From IMG/VR virus record IMGVR_UViG_3300044613_001132, positions 1-25,201 of that record: a DNA stretch of 25,201 bases; one strand, 5' to 3'. Below the pieces are notes generated by a model. That model was not told the origin of the DNA. It saw nothing but the letters and a program-made list of their open reading frames with translations, and did no database searches. The translations under genes were made by a program, and so were the position numbers. The DNA is from a virus. Below, in pieces: positions 2,512-25,201 of this stretch (position 1 is its first letter; every line of letters begins with the position of its first letter).

Positions 2512-3105
2512 CTACTGGGTCAAAACAGAGGTGGCAATTCCTAGTCGAATCTTTGCTCGGAGTTCCATCAAGATAGTTCCAAGCCAGTTCTTTCCCTCTC
2601 GTTGTAGAGGGTCTTCGATAATGTCTGTTGAGCCGTCAGGATTAGTTCCTATCAGATTAACTCCCCAAACTGTATCGTGCCAAAAGGTGCCTTCTTGCAG
2701 ATAGGCGTTTCCTGTTCCTAAGAGTGCATCAGTCAGGATTGGATTAGAAAGAAACTTCTCTGCTACGACTGTTTTCATAACATTATATTTAACTTCTTCC
2801 CAATCGTGTCTGATTACTCGGGCAGTTCGACCAAGGGTCTTTGCTTCTTGTGGGTCTGTTGAGGCGGCGATTCGTTTATAGAGTTGTTCATCTACTCCAT
2901 AAACTTTCTGAGCGGCGTAAGCGTGTTCAGAAGTAGCCCATACAGTTCCGTAACATTTGAAGGGCGAACCTTCATAAAAGTTTGATAAGAACGATAAAGG
3001 ATTATTAGTTCCTAAATCATCAAACCAATCAATTAAAACATCAGGGTTCTTATTAAGAACGCCTTCGTAAGTAAAGCCTTTTGATTCTTCTAGTAATTTA
3101 GCCAT
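2512..3105 (-). CDS. NADAR domain protein (YbiA-like)
   Basis: A 197-residue protein with the NADAR signature: PLSFLSNFY (about 36-44), SPFKCYG and WATSEHAYAAQK (about 56-67), DPQEAKTLGR (about 84-93), and a C-terminal KNWLGTILMELR (about 172-183). NADAR proteins act on ADP-ribose-linked or N-glycosidic substrates. YbiA-type members hydrolyse riboflavin-pathway intermediates, and others remove ADP-ribose from guanine in nucleic acids. It is the last gene of a three-gene cassette with its own candidate promoter and terminator. The RBS is AGAGGGG, 7-8 nt before the ATG. In a phage it could counter ADP-ribosyl-transferring or NAD-linked defences; that is inference. The domain call itself is strong. 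Confidence 0.88.
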   Translation of the reverse strand: MAKLLEESKGFTYEGVLNKNPDVLIDWFDDLGTNNPLSFLSNFYEGSPFKCYGTVWATSEHAYAAQKVYGVDEQLYKRIAASTDPQEAKTLGRTARVIRHDWEEVKYNVMKTVVAEKFLSNPILTDALLGTGNAYLQEGTFWHDTVWGVNLIGTNPDGSTDIIEDPLQREGKNWLGTILMELRAKIRLGIATSVLTQ

Positions 3106-10669: not shown

Positions 10670-10984
10670 TTAGTTTGGTAAGAAGTGAGCGAAAGCCTTC
10701 ATTAATTTATAAGGCTCTATCTCATCTCTTTTTTGTATTGCTTTTCTTTCTTTTTCATCTGTGCCACCCCATATACCTTCAACATCTGTGCCGATTGCAT
10801 AAGTGCGACAAGCCAACTGTACGGGACAGGTCCGACAAAGTCCTTTAGCGATTTCAGTAATTTTTATGAAGTTGTTATTTCGTTCAGGAAAGAATAATTC
10901 AGGGTCGGTTATGGCACAAGGTTCATAACCAGTTGTTGATGGATAAGGCGGTGGAGATGATTTCACAGATTGCGTCCGAGCCAC
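10670..10984 (-). CDS. whiB: WhiB-like iron-sulphur transcription regulator
   Basis: A 104-residue Wbl protein. It has the four cluster cysteines, C23 (in CAITDPELFFP), C50, C53 and C59 (LCRTCPVQLAC), followed by the GIWGGT turn (70-75) and a basic KERKAIQKR tail. Wbl proteins bind a [4Fe-4S] cluster and the primary sigma factor to modulate transcription in Actinobacteria; many actinophages carry one, which is the best host clue here. The start is GTG and lies inside the preceding membrane-protein gene, so translation is probably coupled. It may reprogramme host or phage transcription; targets are unknown. Confidence 0.93.
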   Translation of the reverse strand: MARTQSVKSSPPPYPSTTGYEPCAITDPELFFPERNNNFIKITEIAKGLCRTCPVQLACRTYAIGTDVEGIWGGTDEKERKAIQKRDEIEPYKLMKAFAHFLPN

Positions 10985-11896: not shown

Positions 11897-12451
11897 TTAT
11901 TTTACAGCCTTTTTCTTTAAAGTTGGTTTCTTTTGAGTATGAAAAGTAAATGGCGGTGCGGTGTATGGGTCTATGTCTGAAGCAATTTGTAATGCAGTTG
12001 GAATGTCTGCCTTTGCTTTAAGTGCGCCAATTGCCAAAGAAGAACCTGAACCAATTCCATAGATTCCGGCGGAGTCTAAGCAAACGGACAAATCATCACT
12101 TACTTCAAACACTTCTCCTTCAATAGCAATTAAGAAAGCAAACTTGGTTTCATCATCTTCGGCATCCCATTTGTATTCATTATCTTTAAAACTCTTTTTT
12201 AAGGAAGGAATAACTACTGAAATCATAAAGTGGTAAAGGTCTTTCTTGTCTGCAACAGTAGGGATAGGCGGTTCCCATATATGTTGAACAATGTCGCAAG
12301 CCGCCACTTCACCACTTCCAGCAATCATGTATGGACCAGTAGTGGTTACTTTGACCATCTTTGGGTGGTTGTATTTCTTGTCGGCAGTAACAAGAGAATC
12401 AGAACCCATAACTACGCCATCAGCGAATTGGACAGCAACGATTGTGGTCAT
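11897..12451 (-). CDS. HslV/proteasome-beta-like Ntn-hydrolase (threonine peptidase)
   Basis: A 184-residue protein beginning MTTIVAVQFADGVVMGSDS. If the initiator Met is removed, the exposed Thr is residue 1, Asp falls at 17 (GSDS) and Lys at 33 (KMVKV): the exact catalytic triad spacing of proteasome beta subunits and HslV. GIGSGSSLAIGALKA (about 133-147) matches the conserved GSG loop near Ser129. There is no propeptide, as in HslV. The C-terminus is a Lys-rich tail (KKPTLKKKAVK). No HslU-like ATPase is visible. It may form a barrel peptidase that remodels virion or host proteins. No clear ribosome site precedes the ATG; an in-frame stop lies 12 codons upstream with no better start between. 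Confidence 0.85.
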   Translation of the reverse strand: MTTIVAVQFADGVVMGSDSLVTADKKYNHPKMVKVTTTGPYMIAGSGEVAACDIVQHIWEPPIPTVADKKDLYHFMISVVIPSLKKSFKDNEYKWDAEDDETKFAFLIAIEGEVFEVSDDLSVCLDSAGIYGIGSGSSLAIGALKAKADIPTALQIASDIDPYTAPPFTFHTQKKPTLKKKAVK

Positions 12452-18437: not shown

Positions 18438-20054
18438 TTAAAGATTTTTCCACTCATTCTTTTGAGTTAATGAACCAAAGGTTATGTCGCCATAATGTTG
18501 TCCGGGCGGTTGATAGAAGGCTAAGAGTATGGCTTCCGCTCGGTCAGGAGATTTCATTCCCCTTCGCTTCATATCTTTTTTACTTTCAATAACTATTCGA
18601 CCACTTGAGTCTGATTTATAAGTCGGACCAGATAACTGGGCGAGCGCTTTTGTATCGACATCGAGCCTGATGCTTTGAGTAACTCCTTGGTCGGTGGTAA
18701 TTGGTTGAACAAGTGTTCGAAAGTTCCACCACATCTCAGACCTTTGATTATGAAACTTACCTGAGTCTTTTGCTCGCTCGGCAACATTAACGGCAACAAT
18801 AATTGCTGAGTGCATTTGTTCGTCTCTCCATCGTTTAAGGATTCCAGTTACTCCCCAACCAACTCCAATGGAGTCAATCTTTACAACGACAGGTTCTTTT
18901 ATTTGTCTCTCTCGATGAATCTGTTCGGCTTCTTTTATTTGTTGTAATACCTGTCCAGCCACATCGACAGGATTAGAGTTAGCACTTCCTGATGAACGAT
19001 GACGAACTGTTCCTACATAACCATCAGCCCATGCAATAACGAACTCATCTCCACCATCAGAAGCCACATCCACGCCAAGTTTAATTCTGTTATCGGTTAA
19101 AGGATTATCGTTTTCTGTACAAGCCTCAAGCCAACTATAAGGAATAGTTCGATTTGTGGACATACGAGGAAAGCGAGCATGAACACGAGCCTCGACAAAA
19201 GCAGAGTCGTCTCCAAATTCATTTATAACATCTCTAACCCAAGTTTCATCTACTAAGTGAGAAGAAACAGAATGTTCAGCCACGCTTGCTGGACATGAGC
19301 GACATATACCAGCAGACTCGCCTGTGAAGTTAGGAGTGTCGTATGCACCAATCGGAATTACATTATACAAATCTGAATTACAGGCTCGTTCAAACCAAGA
19401 GTCTTCGTTATCGGTTGGAGGGTTCCCAAGTAATAAAAGTCTTGTGTGTCCACCAGTCATTAGAGATTCAAGTGCAACACCAAGAGTTTGAGAAAGACCG
19501 CCAGCCTCATCAACTACAACTAACAAGTGTGGAGCGTGAATACCCTGAACTGCGGTCTCATCTGTATCGGCAGGAGAAAATCCAAAGGCAACTAACTCGC
19601 CATCTATCTTCCACTCAACCTGATTTACTTCACCGCCAATGTTCGACTTCTTTACAAGTTTTCGAATATGAGGCCAAAGGATATTTTTCACCTGTCGAAA
19701 TGTTGTTGCTGTTGTTACTACTTGAGCGGTTCCAACAGGATGTACTGCAATCCACCAAGCAATAATTCTTGCGGCGATGTGAGATTTTCCGGGAGCGTGG
19801 CAAGCAGGAACGGCGGTTCTTTTATTATCTCGAACGGAAGTAACAATTTCTTTTTGTTTAGTCCAAAGCGTTTCGCCTAAACCTTTTTCAATAAAACCAA
19901 CTGGGTCTTCTTCATAAATCAAATAAGGGTTGTGTAAGTAAGCATCTAAAAGTCGAACAATGTAATTGCGTTCTTCGTCAGTTAAGGTCGCATAGATAGT
20001 CGCTCGCTCAGTCGGAGTCGATGATAGAATCGCCTCCAGATATGGCGTTGGCAT
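18438..20054 (-). CDS. terL: Terminase large subunit
   Basis: A 538-residue DNA-packaging motor. The ATPase domain has a Walker A-type ACHAPGKS (84-91), Walker B LLVVVDEAGG (177-186, Asp182/Glu183) and coupling motif LLLLGNPP (206-213). The nuclease domain has RNase H-fold acids: D329 in LGVDVASDGGDE, D394 in VKIDSIGVGWGV and D504 in SPDRAEAILLAF. It cuts concatemeric DNA and pumps it through the portal. The ATG at 20054 has GGAGG 7 nt upstream and lies inside the end of the small subunit (47-nt overlap). It is the last gene of the operon, followed by a strong terminator. Confidence 0.95.
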   Translation of the reverse strand: MPTPYLEAILSSTPTERATIYATLTDEERNYIVRLLDAYLHNPYLIYEEDPVGFIEKGLGETLWTKQKEIVTSVRDNKRTAVPACHAPGKSHIAARIIAWWIAVHPVGTAQVVTTATTFRQVKNILWPHIRKLVKKSNIGGEVNQVEWKIDGELVAFGFSPADTDETAVQGIHAPHLLVVVDEAGGLSQTLGVALESLMTGGHTRLLLLGNPPTDNEDSWFERACNSDLYNVIPIGAYDTPNFTGESAGICRSCPASVAEHSVSSHLVDETWVRDVINEFGDDSAFVEARVHARFPRMSTNRTIPYSWLEACTENDNPLTDNRIKLGVDVASDGGDEFVIAWADGYVGTVRHRSSGSANSNPVDVAGQVLQQIKEAEQIHRERQIKEPVVVKIDSIGVGWGVTGILKRWRDEQMHSAIIVAVNVAERAKDSGKFHNQRSEMWWNFRTLVQPITTDQGVTQSIRLDVDTKALAQLSGPTYKSDSSGRIVIESKKDMKRRGMKSPDRAEAILLAFYQPPGQHYGDITFGSLTQKNEWKNL

Positions 20055-20508
20055 TACGCGCCTCCAATACTGCTAAAACCTTTTGCTCAAGTGTAACGAC
20101 ATCCACATTCATATTCACTTGAACAGGAGCACCTTCGGCTCCAGTTATTTCAATTCGAGGACTCCATCGGTCAGGGAATCGTCTTGCTAAAAAGTCTTTT
20201 GCCGCTCTCCAATCGCCATCTCTAATAGCGTTCTGCCATTGAGTAACAGACCTTACCTCGGCTGTGTTTTCTGCTTTCTTAACTTGTCGAAAGAACTCAA
20301 CGAAAGGTGCTTCTTTCGCTAAAGGCTTAGAACGAGGATTATTTTCTAATCGAAGGACTTCAGCACTACCTCTAGCCATCCAGTTGTAAATGGTTTGTTC
20401 GGAAACACCAATAAATTCGCAAGCCTGTCTTACGAAAATGCCTTGAGCAATTAACCGAGTAAATTCGTTTTGAACTTCTTCGGTTAGTTTTGTGTTCCGA
20501 CCAGCCAA
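20008..20508 (-). CDS. terS: Terminase small subunit
   Basis: A 166-residue protein with an N-terminal helix-turn-helix (about 8-50: VQNEFTRLIAQGIFVRQACE, GVSEQTIYNWMARG), a charged helical middle (FVEFFRQVKKAENTAEVRSV) and DWRAAKDFLARRFPDRWSPR (about 99-118), a phrase I know from small terminases. It recognises the packaging site and loads TerL. The start is TTG with GGGAG upstream, 1 nt after the FolE stop, so it is translationally linked to the modification genes, an unusual arrangement. Confidence 0.87.
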   Translation of the reverse strand: MAGRNTKLTEEVQNEFTRLIAQGIFVRQACEFIGVSEQTIYNWMARGSAEVLRLENNPRSKPLAKEAPFVEFFRQVKKAENTAEVRSVTQWQNAIRDGDWRAAKDFLARRFPDRWSPRIEITGAEGAPVQVNMNVDVVTLEQKVLAVLEARNANAISGGDSIIDSD

Positions 20509-20509
20509 G

Positions 20510-21070
20510 TTACTCTCCCGTTAGCGTTAGGAATTCTGTTCGTGCCGCTAAGTCTGTTCTCATCAGACCAAGAGTAACAGAGGTAACCATTGTTCCATTC
20601 TTTTTAATTCCTCGGTAACACATACAAGTATGACGAGATTTAACTATCACTCCTACTCCCAATGCGCCAACATGAGTGTTAATAGCATCAGCAATCTCTT
20701 GAGTAAGTCTTTCTTGGACTTGAAGTCGCTTTGCAAAGGTATCTACAACTCGAGCCAACTTTGAAAGTCCTACAACTCGTCCATTGGGAATGTAAGCAAC
20801 TGAAGCCTTACCTTCAAATGGAAGCATGTGATGTTCGCACATACTTACAAAAGGAATGTCTTTAAGAGTTACCATTTGGTCAAAAGGCACATCAAAGTTA
20901 GTTGAAAGAATTGCTTTTGGGTCTTCTCTGTAACCCTCAGTCATTTCGCGTAATGCTTTAGCAACTCTTTTAGGAGTATCTAAAAGTCCATCTCGCTCAG
21001 GGTCTTCTCCAATATATCCAAGCAATACTTTTACTGCTTCTCTTGCTTGCGGTTCTGTTACCTCACTCAT
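20510..21070 (-). CDS. folE: GTP cyclohydrolase I (FolE)
   Basis: A 186-residue enzyme that converts GTP to dihydroneopterin triphosphate, the first step of 7-deazaguanine synthesis. Zinc-site motifs are intact: SMCEHH (77-81, Cys78 and His81) and RHTCM (146-150, Cys149), with catalytic His80 and His147. [20 protein letters not shown] (28-47), [18 protein letters not shown] and [16 protein letters not shown] also match. I placed the start at the internal ATG at 21070 (TAATG overlap with QueE); the longer frame to 21127 would be inside QueE. Its presence with QueD, QueE and DpdA points to DNA modification rather than folate. Confidence 0.95.
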
Positions 21071-21780
21071 TAGTGACCTCTCTTTGCGCCCCAAATGGCG
21101 ACATGGGTTCGTGGAGTTATATTCCAACCGCGAGCAATCGCATCGTTAGCAATAACTTCCATGTGTCTGTTTAACTCCTCAGTACTTCTTCCCTCAGGCA
21201 TAATCCAAATGTTTCGGTCAGGTATCCCTGCCTCTAATTGAATTGCCTCAACCTCATCTAAGCACTCTTTTGATTGGCACACAAACTTAAACGCCACAGG
21301 AGTCCCCGAAGCCATTAATGCTTTGAGAACTTCAGGCTTTCTACGCTTCTTGAGAAGAACGCCGGAATTATTTAATTTAGGAGAACAATTAATTTGAGTT
21401 ATCAAAGGAAAGAGTTCAGGGTCAGGAATAATAGTTCCATTAGTTTCAATTTCAATAGCGATTCCATCAAAAGCAAGAAGTTCAAAGACAGGAACTAATT
21501 CCCTTTTATGCATCATTGGCTCTCCACCTGAGAACACAACTCGCTCAACATCTAACTTTTTGATTGCTTGGTAAATGTCTTCAACAGACATAAATGTTTC
21601 TTCTTTTTCTCGGTCATAAGCAGTTCCATTAAGACCTTTAAAGTCCCATGTGTAAGGCGTATCGCACCAACTACAAGTTAGATTACAAGTCATTAATCGA
21701 ACAAAAGCACATCGCCGACCCGAAGAAGGTCCTTCGCCTTGAATTGTTGGACCAAAGATTTCGCTTACATAGATGCTCAT
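21070..21780 (-). CDS. queE: 7-carboxy-7-deazaguanine synthase (QueE)
   Basis: A 236-residue radical-SAM enzyme that contracts 6-carboxytetrahydropterin to CDG. The cluster motif CNLTCSWC gives C32, C36 and C39; [20 protein letters not shown] (7-26) is the classic QueE N-terminus, and [15 protein letters not shown] holds the GGEP SAM-binding motif. ETNGTI follows. It overlaps QueD by ATGA upstream and FolE by TAATG downstream, so the three are one coupled unit. Confidence 0.95.
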
Positions 21781-22223
21781 GTAGTTACCAACGCAGAATT
21801 GCCATCGTGTTCAGATACTTCAACGCTTACTAAACGAGCACGAGGCGAATAACCTTTTTCATTTAAGTAATCGACTGCCATGTGATAAATGGTTTCAGCA
21901 AAGGCTTCGCAACCGACATTAGGTAATACATTTAAATCTAAAATACCTAATTTGCTTGCTTTCATAAACCATTCCAATTGTGGGTCGTCTTCGGCTACGA
22001 CAGTTTTATGGTCAAAAAGGTTTGCAACTTTTTGTTTCAACTCTTTCAAGTCGCCAAAATCTACTACCCAGTTTCGGTGGTCGAGTTCTTCGGCTTCAAA
22101 AATAAACTTAACCGCTAAGGCGTATCCATGTACAAAGTGGCAGTGACTTTCTGCTCTCCATTGACGAAAGGCGCAAGATAGTCCTTGTTCATGTCCCCAT
22201 CGTTTAGTGCTTTGATATTTCAT
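21777..22223 (-). CDS. queD: 6-carboxytetrahydropterin synthase (QueD), phage type
   Basis: A 148-residue T-fold enzyme that turns dihydroneopterin triphosphate into 6-carboxytetrahydropterin. Motifs: CAFRQWRAESHCHFVHGYAL (17-36) with candidate catalytic Cys28 and ligands His27 and His32; LDHRNWVVDFGDLK (47-60); FDHKTV; GCEAFAETIY (104-113); and SEHDGNSA (137-144) with the conserved Glu. The HGY in place of the usual HGH belongs to a subgroup I have seen in phages and some bacteria. It starts just after the previous stop (TAAATG) and overlaps QueE. Confidence 0.9.
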   Translation of the reverse strand: MKYQSTKRWGHEQGLSCAFRQWRAESHCHFVHGYALAVKFIFEAEELDHRNWVVDFGDLKELKQKVANLFDHKTVVAEDDPQLEWFMKASKLGILDLNVLPNVGCEAFAETIYHMAVDYLNEKGYSPRARLVSVEVSEHDGNSALVTT

Positions 22224-22571
22224 TTACATTCCGTCCCATTGAATTGTTGCGCCTACTTCATTGTCTTCCCATACGGTGCAAGAGTAACTTCTGTCGGGAT
22301 ATTTGTCACGAACCGCTTTAAGAACAACTTCAGCCATATCTTCACAAGAGCGTCTTCCTAGTTCCCCACCAACAGAAGCGGCAGAAGCAAACTCAAGTAA
22401 GTCGTGAAATTCAATTTCTCTATCGTTGTGTCCAACACTTACTGTTAGTTCGTAATAAAATAAATGTCGATGACGAGAGGCAAGATAATCTCTTGTCCCT
22501 TCGGCTTCAGGCCAACAATGCCAACCTTCTCGAGTCCATCTAACTGTAATCCTTCTACTGATTAGTCCCAT
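22224..22571 (-). CDS. Divergent QueD/PTPS-like T-fold protein
   Basis: A 115-residue protein. GWHCWP (16-21) and SRHRHLFYYELTVSVGHND (32-50) line up with the zinc-binding His pattern of the pyruvoyl-tetrahydropterin synthase family (His18, His34, His36). SCEDMAEVV (75-83) matches the conserved T.E region and VWEDNEVGA (100-108) the catalytic-Glu end. The usual active-site Cys just before HxH is missing. It sits between DpdA and QueD and is coupled to DpdA (TAATG). As a canonical QueD is already present, it probably does something else in the pathway. A CDG-modifying step, such as the decarboxylase (DpdL) proposed for phages making 7-deazaguanine, is one possibility; I cannot confirm orthology. 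Confidence 0.65.
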   Translation of the reverse strand: MGLISRRITVRWTREGWHCWPEAEGTRDYLASRHRHLFYYELTVSVGHNDREIEFHDLLEFASAASVGGELGRRSCEDMAEVVLKAVRDKYPDRSYSCTVWEDNEVGATIQWDGM

Positions 22572-23503
22572 TATGCCGATTCCTTTTCGTCTAGTGGTGG
22601 GTAAATAACATCTCCAATTAAATCTGCTCTCCGTTTATAGAAATCTCTCCAACCAATTTGAGCGTGGTTCATAGAGATAGCGGCGGCTTGGAGAATCTTT
22701 CCATCATCATTAATACCAACTTGAACTCTTTCATCTGCCGAATACATTGAACGCCATTCAGGTTCCATGTGTTCAAGGTAAGCATCGTTCATTGCTTGAT
22801 GAGGAAATGAACCCCAACGAACTGGAGCAATCCAAGTTGAAGCGTCAGCACTATCAATACCAATTGCATTAAAAACTTCAGAAGGATTCATACCAAGAAC
22901 ATGAACCCAAAGGTCAGGATACTTACGATGTTTCTCCCAAAGAGTATGAAGAAGTCTTAATCGTGTAGCGGTATTGGCTTGAACGATATTACCAAGACAC
23001 ATACGGTCATAATTTTCAGCAAGTTCATCAAAGTATTCAGCACCATCGTTTAATGGATGCCAAACTGGTATTGGATTGATACCAAGGTCGTGAAGTTTTT
23101 TACGAGTAATCCTTTTGTTCTTTGCGCCACCTTGGTCGAGTTCCATATATCCCCACACTTTGTCGCCAAGTCTTTTATTAACTGCAAGGTATCGGTCCCA
23201 AAGTTTATCGAAGTTATCAATCTCATCAGGCGCAAGAGCAAGCGCTTCGTCCATTGTAATTCCATGCTTGCGTTTGTGTTCATTTGTTAGCCAAAAAATA
23301 CCTGAGTCCAACAACACCTTTGCGCCTTCATCAATTAACTTTTCAACCGCATCAATATCTTTTTGATTATTTAATTCATTAACGGCAATAAGAAACCAGT
23401 CGTGAGTCTTTGGTATGTTTCCTTTTTCGAGGGTTCCAATACTTCCAGCCAACCAAATTACATGGCGGTCATTTGGATTCCATTTACCTCCAGTTTTAAT
23501 CAC
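22571..23503 (-). CDS. dpdA: DNA guanine transglycosylase, DpdA-like
   Basis: A 310-residue TGT-fold enzyme that would exchange guanine in DNA for a 7-deazaguanine. Motifs: LLDSGIFWLTNEHKRKHG (64-81, Asp66), GYMELDQGG (118-126, Asp123), IPVWHPLND, CLGNIVQAN, WVHVLGM and GIDSADASTW (215-224, Asp217). It lacks the zinc-binding cysteine cluster of tRNA-type TGT; C169 is the only cysteine I see. I chose GTG at 23503 (AGAGGG 6 nt upstream; overlap of 8 nt with the previous gene) over TTG at 23554, which would overlap by 59 nt without a ribosome site. Neighbouring FolE, QueD and QueE supply the base. Confidence 0.88.
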   Translation of the reverse strand: MIKTGGKWNPNDRHVIWLAGSIGTLEKGNIPKTHDWFLIAVNELNNQKDIDAVEKLIDEGAKVLLDSGIFWLTNEHKRKHGITMDEALALAPDEIDNFDKLWDRYLAVNKRLGDKVWGYMELDQGGAKNKRITRKKLHDLGINPIPVWHPLNDGAEYFDELAENYDRMCLGNIVQANTATRLRLLHTLWEKHRKYPDLWVHVLGMNPSEVFNAIGIDSADASTWIAPVRWGSFPHQAMNDAYLEHMEPEWRSMYSADERVQVGINDDGKILQAAAISMNHAQIGWRDFYKRRADLIGDVIYPPLDEKESA

Positions 23504-24284
23504 GATGAACCCTCTTTGCTGAGTCAGCACCTCGGACGGCAATATATTTATCAATGATGTGTCCTGCTAAATAAACATTTGGTTGAACCATTATTGCTGG
23601 CGTTTGGTCTAACTTATACGACAAAGCAATATACGGACCGGGATAAGGAAGGAACAAAAGTCCTTTCTCTAAATACTTAACATACTTTTCCCACTCTTTC
23701 ATTACATCAGCAATTACTAAAAGATGAACGCCTAGTTTCCATACATCGCCACTAAACACTTCAGTCTTAGGTTCGCCATAAGCAACATTAAGAAGCGATA
23801 AGAGTTCGCCTCTATCGGGTTGAGATAGTGCGGCTTCTTCTTTTGAACCACCAAGAGATTCTAAAATAACATCAATATCGCCGCTGTTGTATCCAGTTGC
23901 GGCAAACAAATCAGCATCGAAGGCTTCCATCTCTTTCAATAAAAGATTAAGTTCGCCTTCATCGTAAGTTCCAAGGTCGTGTGTTCTGTTATCCGCTAAT
24001 GAAAAAGCCTTAGCGGTGTTCTCATCTTCGTCAATAAATACAACTGCAATCTCTTTCCATTTCAAAGCACGAGCCGCTTCGAGTTGATGATTGCCTGCTG
24101 TAACAGTTCCAGTAGCAAAACCGTTTTCACTTATTCCTAATCGGCGAGCCACAATTGGTTTGCGTTGTCCGAACTTTTCGTAAGAACGCTTTACTGCTTC
24201 AACATCTCCCTTTCGTGGATTACCAGCCATAGGGGTTAAGTTCTCAATAGGAACTGCTAGTGATTTTAAATCGGGAGCAATCAT
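23496..24284 (-). CDS. ParB-like domain protein with methyltransferase-tail-like C-terminus
   Basis: A 262-residue protein. Residues about 10-135 are a ParB/Srx-like nuclease-type domain: IENLTPMAGNPRKGDVEAVK, KFGQRKPIVARR, TAGNHQLEAARALKWKEIAV (the GNHR-like motif), DNRTHDLGTYDEGELNLLL and TGYNSGDIDVIL. The C-terminal part has VFSGDVWKLGVHLLVIADVM and QPNVYLAGHIIDKYIAVRG, which resemble the entrance (GD.W.LG.H.L...D) and the last helix (P.Y...II.R) of ParB-linked DNA methyltransferases, but no DPPY or FxGxG motif is visible. The ATG at 24284 overlaps the previous stop (ATGA). Confidence 0.75.
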   Translation of the reverse strand: MIAPDLKSLAVPIENLTPMAGNPRKGDVEAVKRSYEKFGQRKPIVARRLGISENGFATGTVTAGNHQLEAARALKWKEIAVVFIDEDENTAKAFSLADNRTHDLGTYDEGELNLLLKEMEAFDADLFAATGYNSGDIDVILESLGGSKEEAALSQPDRGELLSLLNVAYGEPKTEVFSGDVWKLGVHLLVIADVMKEWEKYVKYLEKGLLFLPYPGPYIALSYKLDQTPAIMVQPNVYLAGHIIDKYIAVRGADSAKRVHRD

Positions 24285-25201
24285 TGATTTACCTTTCTTA
24301 CTTTCCAGTTTGTTAATAACAGTCGTTCTGCTATTACCTTGCACGCCTCGTCATGGTTTAGAGGAAGTTCATCTTGCCATATTTGGAACTCACTTCTCGA
24401 CACCTTGAATGTTAATGTTCCAACTTGTCCTTTAACCGTCTTTGGTATTGGAGTTCCTTCACTGCCTCGAAGTATTGAGTCCACATCGTCACCATCAAAG
24501 CCTGTTCCACTAAACTCGGTAAGGCTTGCTAGAAGTATTTGTAATTCTTCATCATCATAAGTTGCTAGGTCAGCGGTCTTGTTATCTGATAAAAGGATTC
24601 TTATTGCTTGTTCATCATCAACTTCAATCCAAGTTACTGCTATCTCTTTCCAACCTAAAGAGTAGGCGGCGTGCCAAGTGTGATTACCAATTAAAATAGT
24701 TAGGTCATTTTTATTAACAATAATTGGTCTGTACTGACCTAATGTTTTAAGCGATTCGCTAATCGCTCCCACATCACCTTCTCTTGGATTGCGAGGGTGA
24801 GGTCTAACATTGGTAATCGGTACGACTTCTGTTCCACCCATAATTACATGATGAGGTTCCAAAAGGTTACCTTTTACCACCTGCTCTTTGAATCCTAATC
24901 GTTCTTTAAGGTGTTCGATTTGTCCTTTTTTATCTTTACTTAACTCTCGTAAGCCTTTACTTAAAGAGTTGAGTTCATCTTCATCGGCTTCGATTACATA
25001 AAGTCCAATACGAACAAGGTGTTCTGTTTCGCTTGAAGCAGGAGGCGCAACAGAAGGTTTATCTTCGTCTTTCTCATCTTTTAAATTAGGTAATGGCGCT
25101 TCATAGAGTCCATCCATCTTATCGAAGTCGTCTAAGTTGTATCCAGTTCCGTCCCACGAATCCAATTCTTCTAAAAGTTCTAAAATAAGTTCATCATTAA
25201 A
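24281..25201 (-). CDS. Tandem ParB-like domain protein, 5' end outside the window
   Basis: The frame is open to the window edge, with 306 residues visible. The first visible residues (FNDELILELLEE, then GTGYNLDDFDKM) look like the end of one ParB-like module. After a charged coiled linker (about 35-105), a complete second module follows: VVPITNVRPHPRNPREGDVG, TLGQYRPIIVNKND, LIGNHTWHAAYSLGWKEIAV, LLSDNKTADLATYDDEELQI and GTGFDGDDVDSIL. A C-terminal segment (GTLTFKVSRSEFQIWQDELP) ends it. Together with the next gene this gives three related modules in a row. The likely role is DNA binding or nicking, possibly linked to modification. TTG at 25165 is not needed as a start because upstream sequence continues in frame. 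Confidence 0.78.
   Translation of the reverse strand, partial: FNDELILELLEELDSWDGTGYNLDDFDKMDGLYEAPLPNLKDEKDEDKPSVAPPASSETEHLVRIGLYVIEADEDELNSLSKGLRELSKDKKGQIEHLKERLGFKEQVVKGNLLEPHHVIMGGTEVVPITNVRPHPRNPREGDVGAISESLKTLGQYRPIIVNKNDLTILIGNHTWHAAYSLGWKEIAVTWIEVDDEQAIRILLSDNKTADLATYDDEELQILLASLTEFSGTGFDGDDVDSILRGSEGTPIPKTVKGQVGTLTFKVSRSEFQIWQDELPLNHDEACKVIAERLLLTNWKVRKVNQ

Follow-up and report, generated by a model that had tools for sequence, protein, structure and literature searches.

The conversion of GTP to CDG by FolE, QueD and QueE is an established pathway, and a CDG decarboxylase, DpdL, together with natural dDG, was reportedly described by Cui et al. in 2023. The same CDG enzymes accompany a TGT-like DpdA that modifies the phage DNA in Enterobacteria phage 9g, CAjan and Rosebush, and DpdA exchange into DNA is established for the family (PMC6884629). 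In bacterial Dpd systems, DpdA is paired with DpdB, a ParB-like ATPase (PMC12839542, PMC6392294). The viral cassette described here has the CDG enzymes and a DpdA-like protein in common with the phage systems, but it is without the QueC or Gat-QueC of 9g, CAjan and Rosebush, its DpdA belongs to a different clade from those of 9g and CAjan, and it adjoins the terminase genes, whereas the modification genes of 9g and CAjan adjoin DNA polymerase genes. As in the bacterial Dpd islands, a ParB-superfamily protein stands with DpdA (PMC12839542, PMC6392294); unlike in these islands, no restriction genes were seen here. Mycobacterium phage Bipper has the similar order ParB-DpdA-slot gene-QueD-QueE-FolE-small ORF-terminase, also without QueC. 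However, its slot protein gp4 has no detectable relation to the T-fold family described below, its DpdA falls on the QueC-type side of the tree, and it is without the methyltransferase remnant found here. Cellulophaga phage phi38:2, which has annotated QueC and QueF, was set aside as a reference modified phage, as it is not comparable.

The window, i.e. the whole stretch of DNA analysed, is the entire IMG/VR record of 25,201 bp, itself a fragment, and a near-identity search among known phages returned no match to it. The G+C content of 42% and a WhiB gene encoded in the record suggest an actinobacterial host. The cassette lies on the minus strand, as do all features given below, in the order ParB1, ParB2, DpdA, a 115-aa protein, QueD, QueE, FolE, terS and terL. 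The first ParB-like gene, ParB1 (24281..25165; phrog_8071, E 1e-90), was also found in TerL kin without the cassette and is phage backbone upstream of the unit; ParB2 (23496..24344), directly upstream of DpdA, belongs to the coupled unit.

According to the junction sequences, DpdA starts with a GTG (position 23503) that shares bases with the ParB2 stop, and the ATG of the 115-aa protein gene likewise lies on the stop codon of DpdA. The first base of QueD comes directly after the stop of the 115-aa protein gene, QueE and QueD overlap by 4 bp, and a candidate ATG of FolE overlaps the QueE stop. The TTG of terS follows directly after the FolE stop, and terS and terL overlap, so that the cassette runs straight into the packaging genes, as had been stated in the preliminary description. 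Its account of FolE, QueD, QueE and a DpdA-like protein with intact motifs and coupled starts likewise agrees with the profile matches, conserved residues and junctions. Judging by the gene order, the modification and packaging genes would be co-expressed.

FolE (GTP cyclohydrolase I; 20510..21070) matched PF01227 with 232 bits and TIGR00063 with a score over the NCBIfam equivalog cut-off, and the ATG at 21070 is probably its start, being preferred over the alternative TTG at 21127. QueE (7-carboxy-7-deazaguanine synthase, radical SAM; 21070..21780) was identified by phrog_2076 (E 3e-60), TIGR03365 (E 4e-29) and PDB 5tgs (E 4e-23), and its radical SAM motif CxxxCxxC reads CNLTCSWC. QueD (6-carboxytetrahydropterin synthase; 21777..22223) matched PF01242 (E 7e-19) and phrog_2389 (E 2.8e-40), and its residues C28, H32, D71, H72, E106 and E138 were kept in 64 phage homologues with one gap at C28. 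The predicted enzyme set for making CDG, as in a Dpd system, is hence complete.

The DpdA-like DNA-guanine transglycosylase (22571..23503; 310 aa, GTG start) matched phrog_887 (E 2.6e-20), and a profile of the protein and its relatives matched the solved DNA-guanine transglycosylase PDB 7ui4 (E 2.6e-4). The AF2 model had a pLDDT of 77, with TGTs as the best Foldseek matches (probability 1.0). The NCBIfam DpdA model, with a cut-off of 200 bits, gave just 12 bits, which places the protein in a divergent clade. In a tree of 44 sequences, in which one row labelled QueC-type (L227) is actually without QueC, it fell into a clade of 21 members (support 100/99), to which neither 9g, CAjan and Bipper nor the DpdA of the QueC-bearing contigs belong. 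Placement among DpdA1-4, as had been proposed beforehand, was obtained in relation to DpdA1 (9g, CAjan), with which the protein did not group; DpdA1 is the subfamily for which this tree has references of certain type. By profile, fold and tree, the protein is predicted to be a DpdA-type transglycosylase.

Between DpdA and QueD lies the gene for the 115-aa protein (22224..22571), a member of phrog_17812 (unknown function), which received no Pfam, NCBIfam or PADLOC family name from the model searches; no model named DpdL was present in the libraries searched. Its AF2 model (pLDDT 93) has a bbaabb T-fold, the best Foldseek matches in the PDB were P. horikoshii PTPS and E. coli QueD (E 1e-5, TM 0.76), and hhalign related the family to QueD with 95% probability. 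A PDB sequence search with the profile of the protein returned noise and a weak PTPS match, so the fold comparison was needed, and the prediction of an extra T-fold protein proved correct. The conserved residues of the family are H18, H34, R35, H36, D50, R51, E54, S75-C76-E77, E102 and D103. The predicted bbaabb fold, the conserved His set and the C-terminal Glu point to membership in the QueD/PTPS T-fold superfamily. A QueD enzyme is marked by an Asp-His pair and by a catalytic Cys that the His ligands flank, and the family does not have this pattern: no Cys lies between H18 and H34, and the invariant Cys is instead C76. Because the catalytic Cys is missing and the invariant one is elsewhere, we interpret the protein as a paralogue of QueD with a different reaction.

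The family was present in 22 isolate phage records and in at least 582 IMG/VR stretches. In the isolate phages examined, the T-fold gene was near FolE, QueD or QueE, barring Roos, in which a DpdA-like gene alone was seen near it, and PA5oct, in which QueE was present and FolE absent in the stretch read around the gene. FolE was found in 37 of 50 T-fold contigs. The T-fold gene co-occurs with more than one transglycosylase type, as expected for a base-making enzyme. At most ACP17-type loci, a glycosyltransferase-like gene was near the T-fold gene (56/80 loci), and in one BFVD relative the T-fold domain is joined into a longer protein annotated as alcohol dehydrogenase; these neighbours and this fusion count against a universal decarboxylase.

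No QueC was found in the 25,201-bp record, in line with the preliminary description. This absence means little by itself, the record being a fragment, and it is the relatives that settle the matter. In the QueC-bearing relatives, which are the closest contigs with QueE, the order is DpdA-QueC-QueD-QueE-FolE, versus DpdA-T-fold-QueD-QueE-FolE here; on this gene order, the T-fold gene replaces QueC in its place. The window QueE retrieved 22 contigs; QueC is present in 17, none of which has the T-fold gene. Of 93 viral QueE loci, 57 had QueC only, seven the T-fold gene only, 29 neither and none both (Fisher P 9e-4 for mutual exclusion, uncorrected for kinship). Convincing QueC was found in 0/11 isolate phage genomes with the T-fold gene, in 0/50 T-fold contigs, and in 0/24 further records of up to 97 kb, most of the ParB-DpdA-T-fold type; five of the 24 were already among the 50 contigs, and the T-fold records amount to about 80 overall. 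Partial QueC matches of 16–33 bits in a few T-fold records were judged to be other members of the ATPase superfamily. The records compared are for the most part fragments. At the level of gene content, QueC is systematically missing from the T-fold operon type in the relatives, and neither the record, from an incomplete genome, nor the relatives with the same unit contained the QueC of a preQ0-type system. The slot is empty in one locus (L265; ParB-DpdA-QueD-QueE-FolE), and an enzyme in the slot is accordingly not always needed. In Bipper and one further locus (L298), it is filled by a second small family (35% identical), which is neither QueC nor T-fold.

The upstream gene of the unit, ParB2, encodes a ParB/Srx protein, recognised by its ParB matches, with a shrunken, methyltransferase-derived C-terminal domain. 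The protein matched the PADLOC ParB-MTase model PDLC03229 (E 6e-17), and its short C-terminal domain (GDVWKLGVHLLVIADV...LFLPYPGPY...VQPNVYLAGHIIDKY) aligned with intact MTase domains (hhalign probability 94%, E 1.7e-7) over the beginning of that domain (GD.W.LG.HRL..GDS, DPPY). DPPY and FxGxG were absent from this C-terminus in all 13 loci scanned, and compared to ParB-methyltransferases of the PDLC03229 type, ParB2 has lost the catalytic and SAM motifs and is about 120 aa shorter. The motifs of an N4/N6 DNA methyltransferase, lacking in the ParB2 C-terminus, were present in four cassette-free kin (L121-L124), the TerL of which is 62–65% identical to the window TerL. In these kin, an intact ParB-methyltransferase (DPPY, FxGxG; 404 bits in PADLOC) with the same N-terminal domain as ParB2 occupies the cassette position before terS; in L122 and L124, the kin that were read completely, it leads directly into terS, and that of L122 matched PF01555. 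Since the intact gene lies at the same place in kin, deazaguanine seems to have taken over from methylation in this phage. One DNA-modification module thus appears, on the sequence comparison, to have been swapped for another at the same place with a conserved remnant left, and we infer that the direction was from the methyltransferase to the deazaguanine cassette.

The remnant is closely tied to DpdA. A scan for the protein placed the ParB-pseudo-methyltransferase directly upstream of window-type DpdA in 13/13 loci, with an overlap that is mostly 4 bp across loci, and the ParB2-type domain preceded DpdA in every T-fold locus of the 93-locus QueE set and directly in a Bradyrhizobium chromosome (L199; Bradyrhizobium barranii 1S5, a cultured strain). 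This arrangement was seen at each such DpdA whose record extends far enough upstream. As DpdB is the ParB-like DpdA partner in bacteria, a DpdB-like role is a natural guess, and by this analogy ParB2 may be a DpdA partner of that kind. ParB2 has a ParB domain and is strictly linked to DpdA; DpdB model searches returned no match for it, and unlike the DpdB of bacterial Dpd islands it resembles a cut-down ParB-methyltransferase fusion. The ParB-DpdA link is not wholly new, as bacterial DpdB is already a ParB-like partner.

Downstream of the cassette, terS (terminase small subunit; 20008..20508) matched phrog_4102 (E 7.7e-32) and terL (terminase large subunit; 18438..20054) matched phrog_2 (E 1.5e-31). 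TerL was confirmed downstream in 9 of 10 relatives tested, with best matches to five PHROG families (phrog_15, phrog_2, phrog_38, phrog_9 and phrog_979), and the terminase link therefore recurs across TerL lineages. As ParB-methyltransferases also hold the place adjoining terS, the link may be a legacy of the gene that was exchanged.

ParB2 with its degenerate methyltransferase domain, the separate DpdA clade and the recurrence of the terminase link go beyond the preliminary description, which had listed three fates for CDG: direct insertion, conversion by the T-fold protein, and reliance on host or distant QueC. Because QueC is systematically absent from the relatives, a CDG derivative made by the T-fold protein is the favoured branch, and the other two are less likely. 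On its predicted fold, residues and position, the T-fold protein is most likely a CDG-processing enzyme, and it is probably a CDG decarboxylase, so that the DNA would carry dDG and not dPreQ0 or dCDG. The DpdL of the dDG phages, reportedly a CDG decarboxylase that yields dDG, is probably of this family. In the self-contained cassette so envisaged, to which we assign a probability of about 0.58, FolE, QueD and QueE would make CDG from GTP, the T-fold enzyme, instead of QueC, would strip the CDG carboxyl to yield 7-deazaguanine (DG), and DpdA, assisted by the adjacent ParB protein, would swap guanine in the phage DNA for what is presumably DG. The resulting dDG-type DNA would, by analogy with related phages in which such resistance is established, resist host restriction. 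The cassette would have displaced a functional ParB-methyltransferase upstream of terS-terL, and the methyltransferase half would be a remnant kept with DpdA.

A bolder reading, which we hold tentatively, is that the cassette represents a new subtype of Dpd system: a phage ParB-methyltransferase would have turned into a dedicated DpdA partner, the T-fold protein would stand in for QueC, and the base would be derived from CDG and not be dPreQ0. The conserved module of ~75 residues to which the catalytic half shrank would then recruit or direct the new DpdA clade, and the base could be dDG or one as yet undescribed.

It is possible, if doubtful, that the T-fold enzyme modifies CDG otherwise than by decarboxylation (for example by reduction, amidation or another derivatisation), and that DpdA inserts an undescribed base. 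The invariant Cys76, His18/34/36 and Glu54/77/102 would form a pocket resembling that of QueD or QueF, in which a nucleophile may be present, and the link to an alcohol dehydrogenase-annotated protein is compatible with such a reaction. Bare DG has no obvious sugar handle, and so the glycosyltransferase-like neighbours in ACP17-type phages hint at a different product there. However, no cofactor-binding partner or ligase is present in the cassette, and decarboxylation is the simplest step for one protein, with a reported precedent.

Direct insertion of CDG by DpdA, to give dCDG with the T-fold protein as an accessory, was raised in its first part by Hutinet et al. 2019, who considered CDG for Bipper (PMC6884629), and is consistent with the QueC-less operons without the T-fold gene (L265 and Bipper). 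We consider it unlikely, as it leaves unexplained why a T-fold gene should sit in the QueC slot to the exclusion of QueC itself. Still less probable is that preQ0 comes from host QueC, or from QueC elsewhere in the phage, and yields dPreQ0 or a derivative. The record is a fragment and hosts can supply precursors (PMC6884629), but relatives of 43–97 kb and the isolate genomes with the T-fold gene had no QueC, and WhiB points to an actinobacterial host, of which M. smegmatis at least is without the pathway. That the genes serve host tRNA queuosine or folate, to which pathways FolE, QueD and QueE are common, is scarcely credible, given that the coupled unit also contains a DpdA-type transglycosylase with a ParB partner and that the cassette stands where kin carry a DNA methyltransferase.

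Dpd systems themselves were already known; the novelty is that this one, beside the terminase, does without QueC and combines a T-fold enzyme with a ParB-pseudo-methyltransferase. With decarboxylation by the T-fold protein as the preferred reading, the presence of QueC or the T-fold gene in the slot would be a sequence rule predicting the base of a deazaguanine phage, and a large unnamed family of phage proteins would be tied to the deazaguanine pathway. With the conserved methyltransferase remnant beside DpdA, the way in which DpdA is guided to DNA becomes testable. Methylation and deazaguanine modification appear to exchange at one genomic position beside the packaging genes, and the cassette would show one way in which phages switch between kinds of DNA camouflage.

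The ParB protein encoded immediately upstream of the window-type DpdA clade (in the window at 23496-24344, minus strand) carries a conserved but motif-less remnant of a DNA methyltransferase, which was found in the window and in the compared loci L017, L018, L020-L022, L199 and L292-L311. In the TerL relatives without the cassette (L121-L124), the ParB-methyltransferase is intact, unlike the remnant of the window. The ParB-DpdA-T-fold unit was also located in the Bradyrhizobium barranii 1S5 chromosome (L199, 4383297-4399614), with FolE, QueD and QueE a few kb apart from it, and this locus is possibly a prophage.

A second family of small proteins occupies the QueC slot, between DpdA and QueD, in the QueC-less operons of Mycobacterium phage Bipper (gp4, L219:2047-2472) and L298 (1669-2058); the two are 35% identical, with an HxH motif, and similarity of this family to the T-fold family was not detectable. 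Two exceptions were identified: in L265 the ParB-DpdA unit is present and the slot is empty, and in L003 the window-type DpdA is accompanied by FolE only, within the stretch read. In L017, the closest relative, a GP88-family gene (PF17338, 7296-8006) separates DpdA from the T-fold gene. Phosphoribosyltransferase-like domains occur in several deazaguanine operons, some of which have QueC and some of which lack it; the domains are either fused to FolE or placed between QueD and QueE (L017:9455-10402, L098:10663-11562, L237:8887-9780, L018:3723-4106, L022:11446-11826, L007:3450-3908).

Other window genes, all on the minus strand, encode an HslV/proteasome-family peptidase (11897-12451; phrog_1040, PF00227), a NADAR-domain protein (2512-3105; PF08719, 100 bits) with kinship to riboflavin-intermediate N-glycosidase and anti-phage NADAR families and a possible ADP-ribose or anti-defence role, and a WhiB-like transcription factor (10670-10984), which points to an actinobacterial host.

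In ACP17-type phages (L004, L007, L008, L010, L023-L096), a glycosyltransferase-like gene is commonly, and a larger TGT-like gene (phrog_10773) sometimes, close to the T-fold gene. These neighbours suggest that such phages may have a sugar-bearing base.
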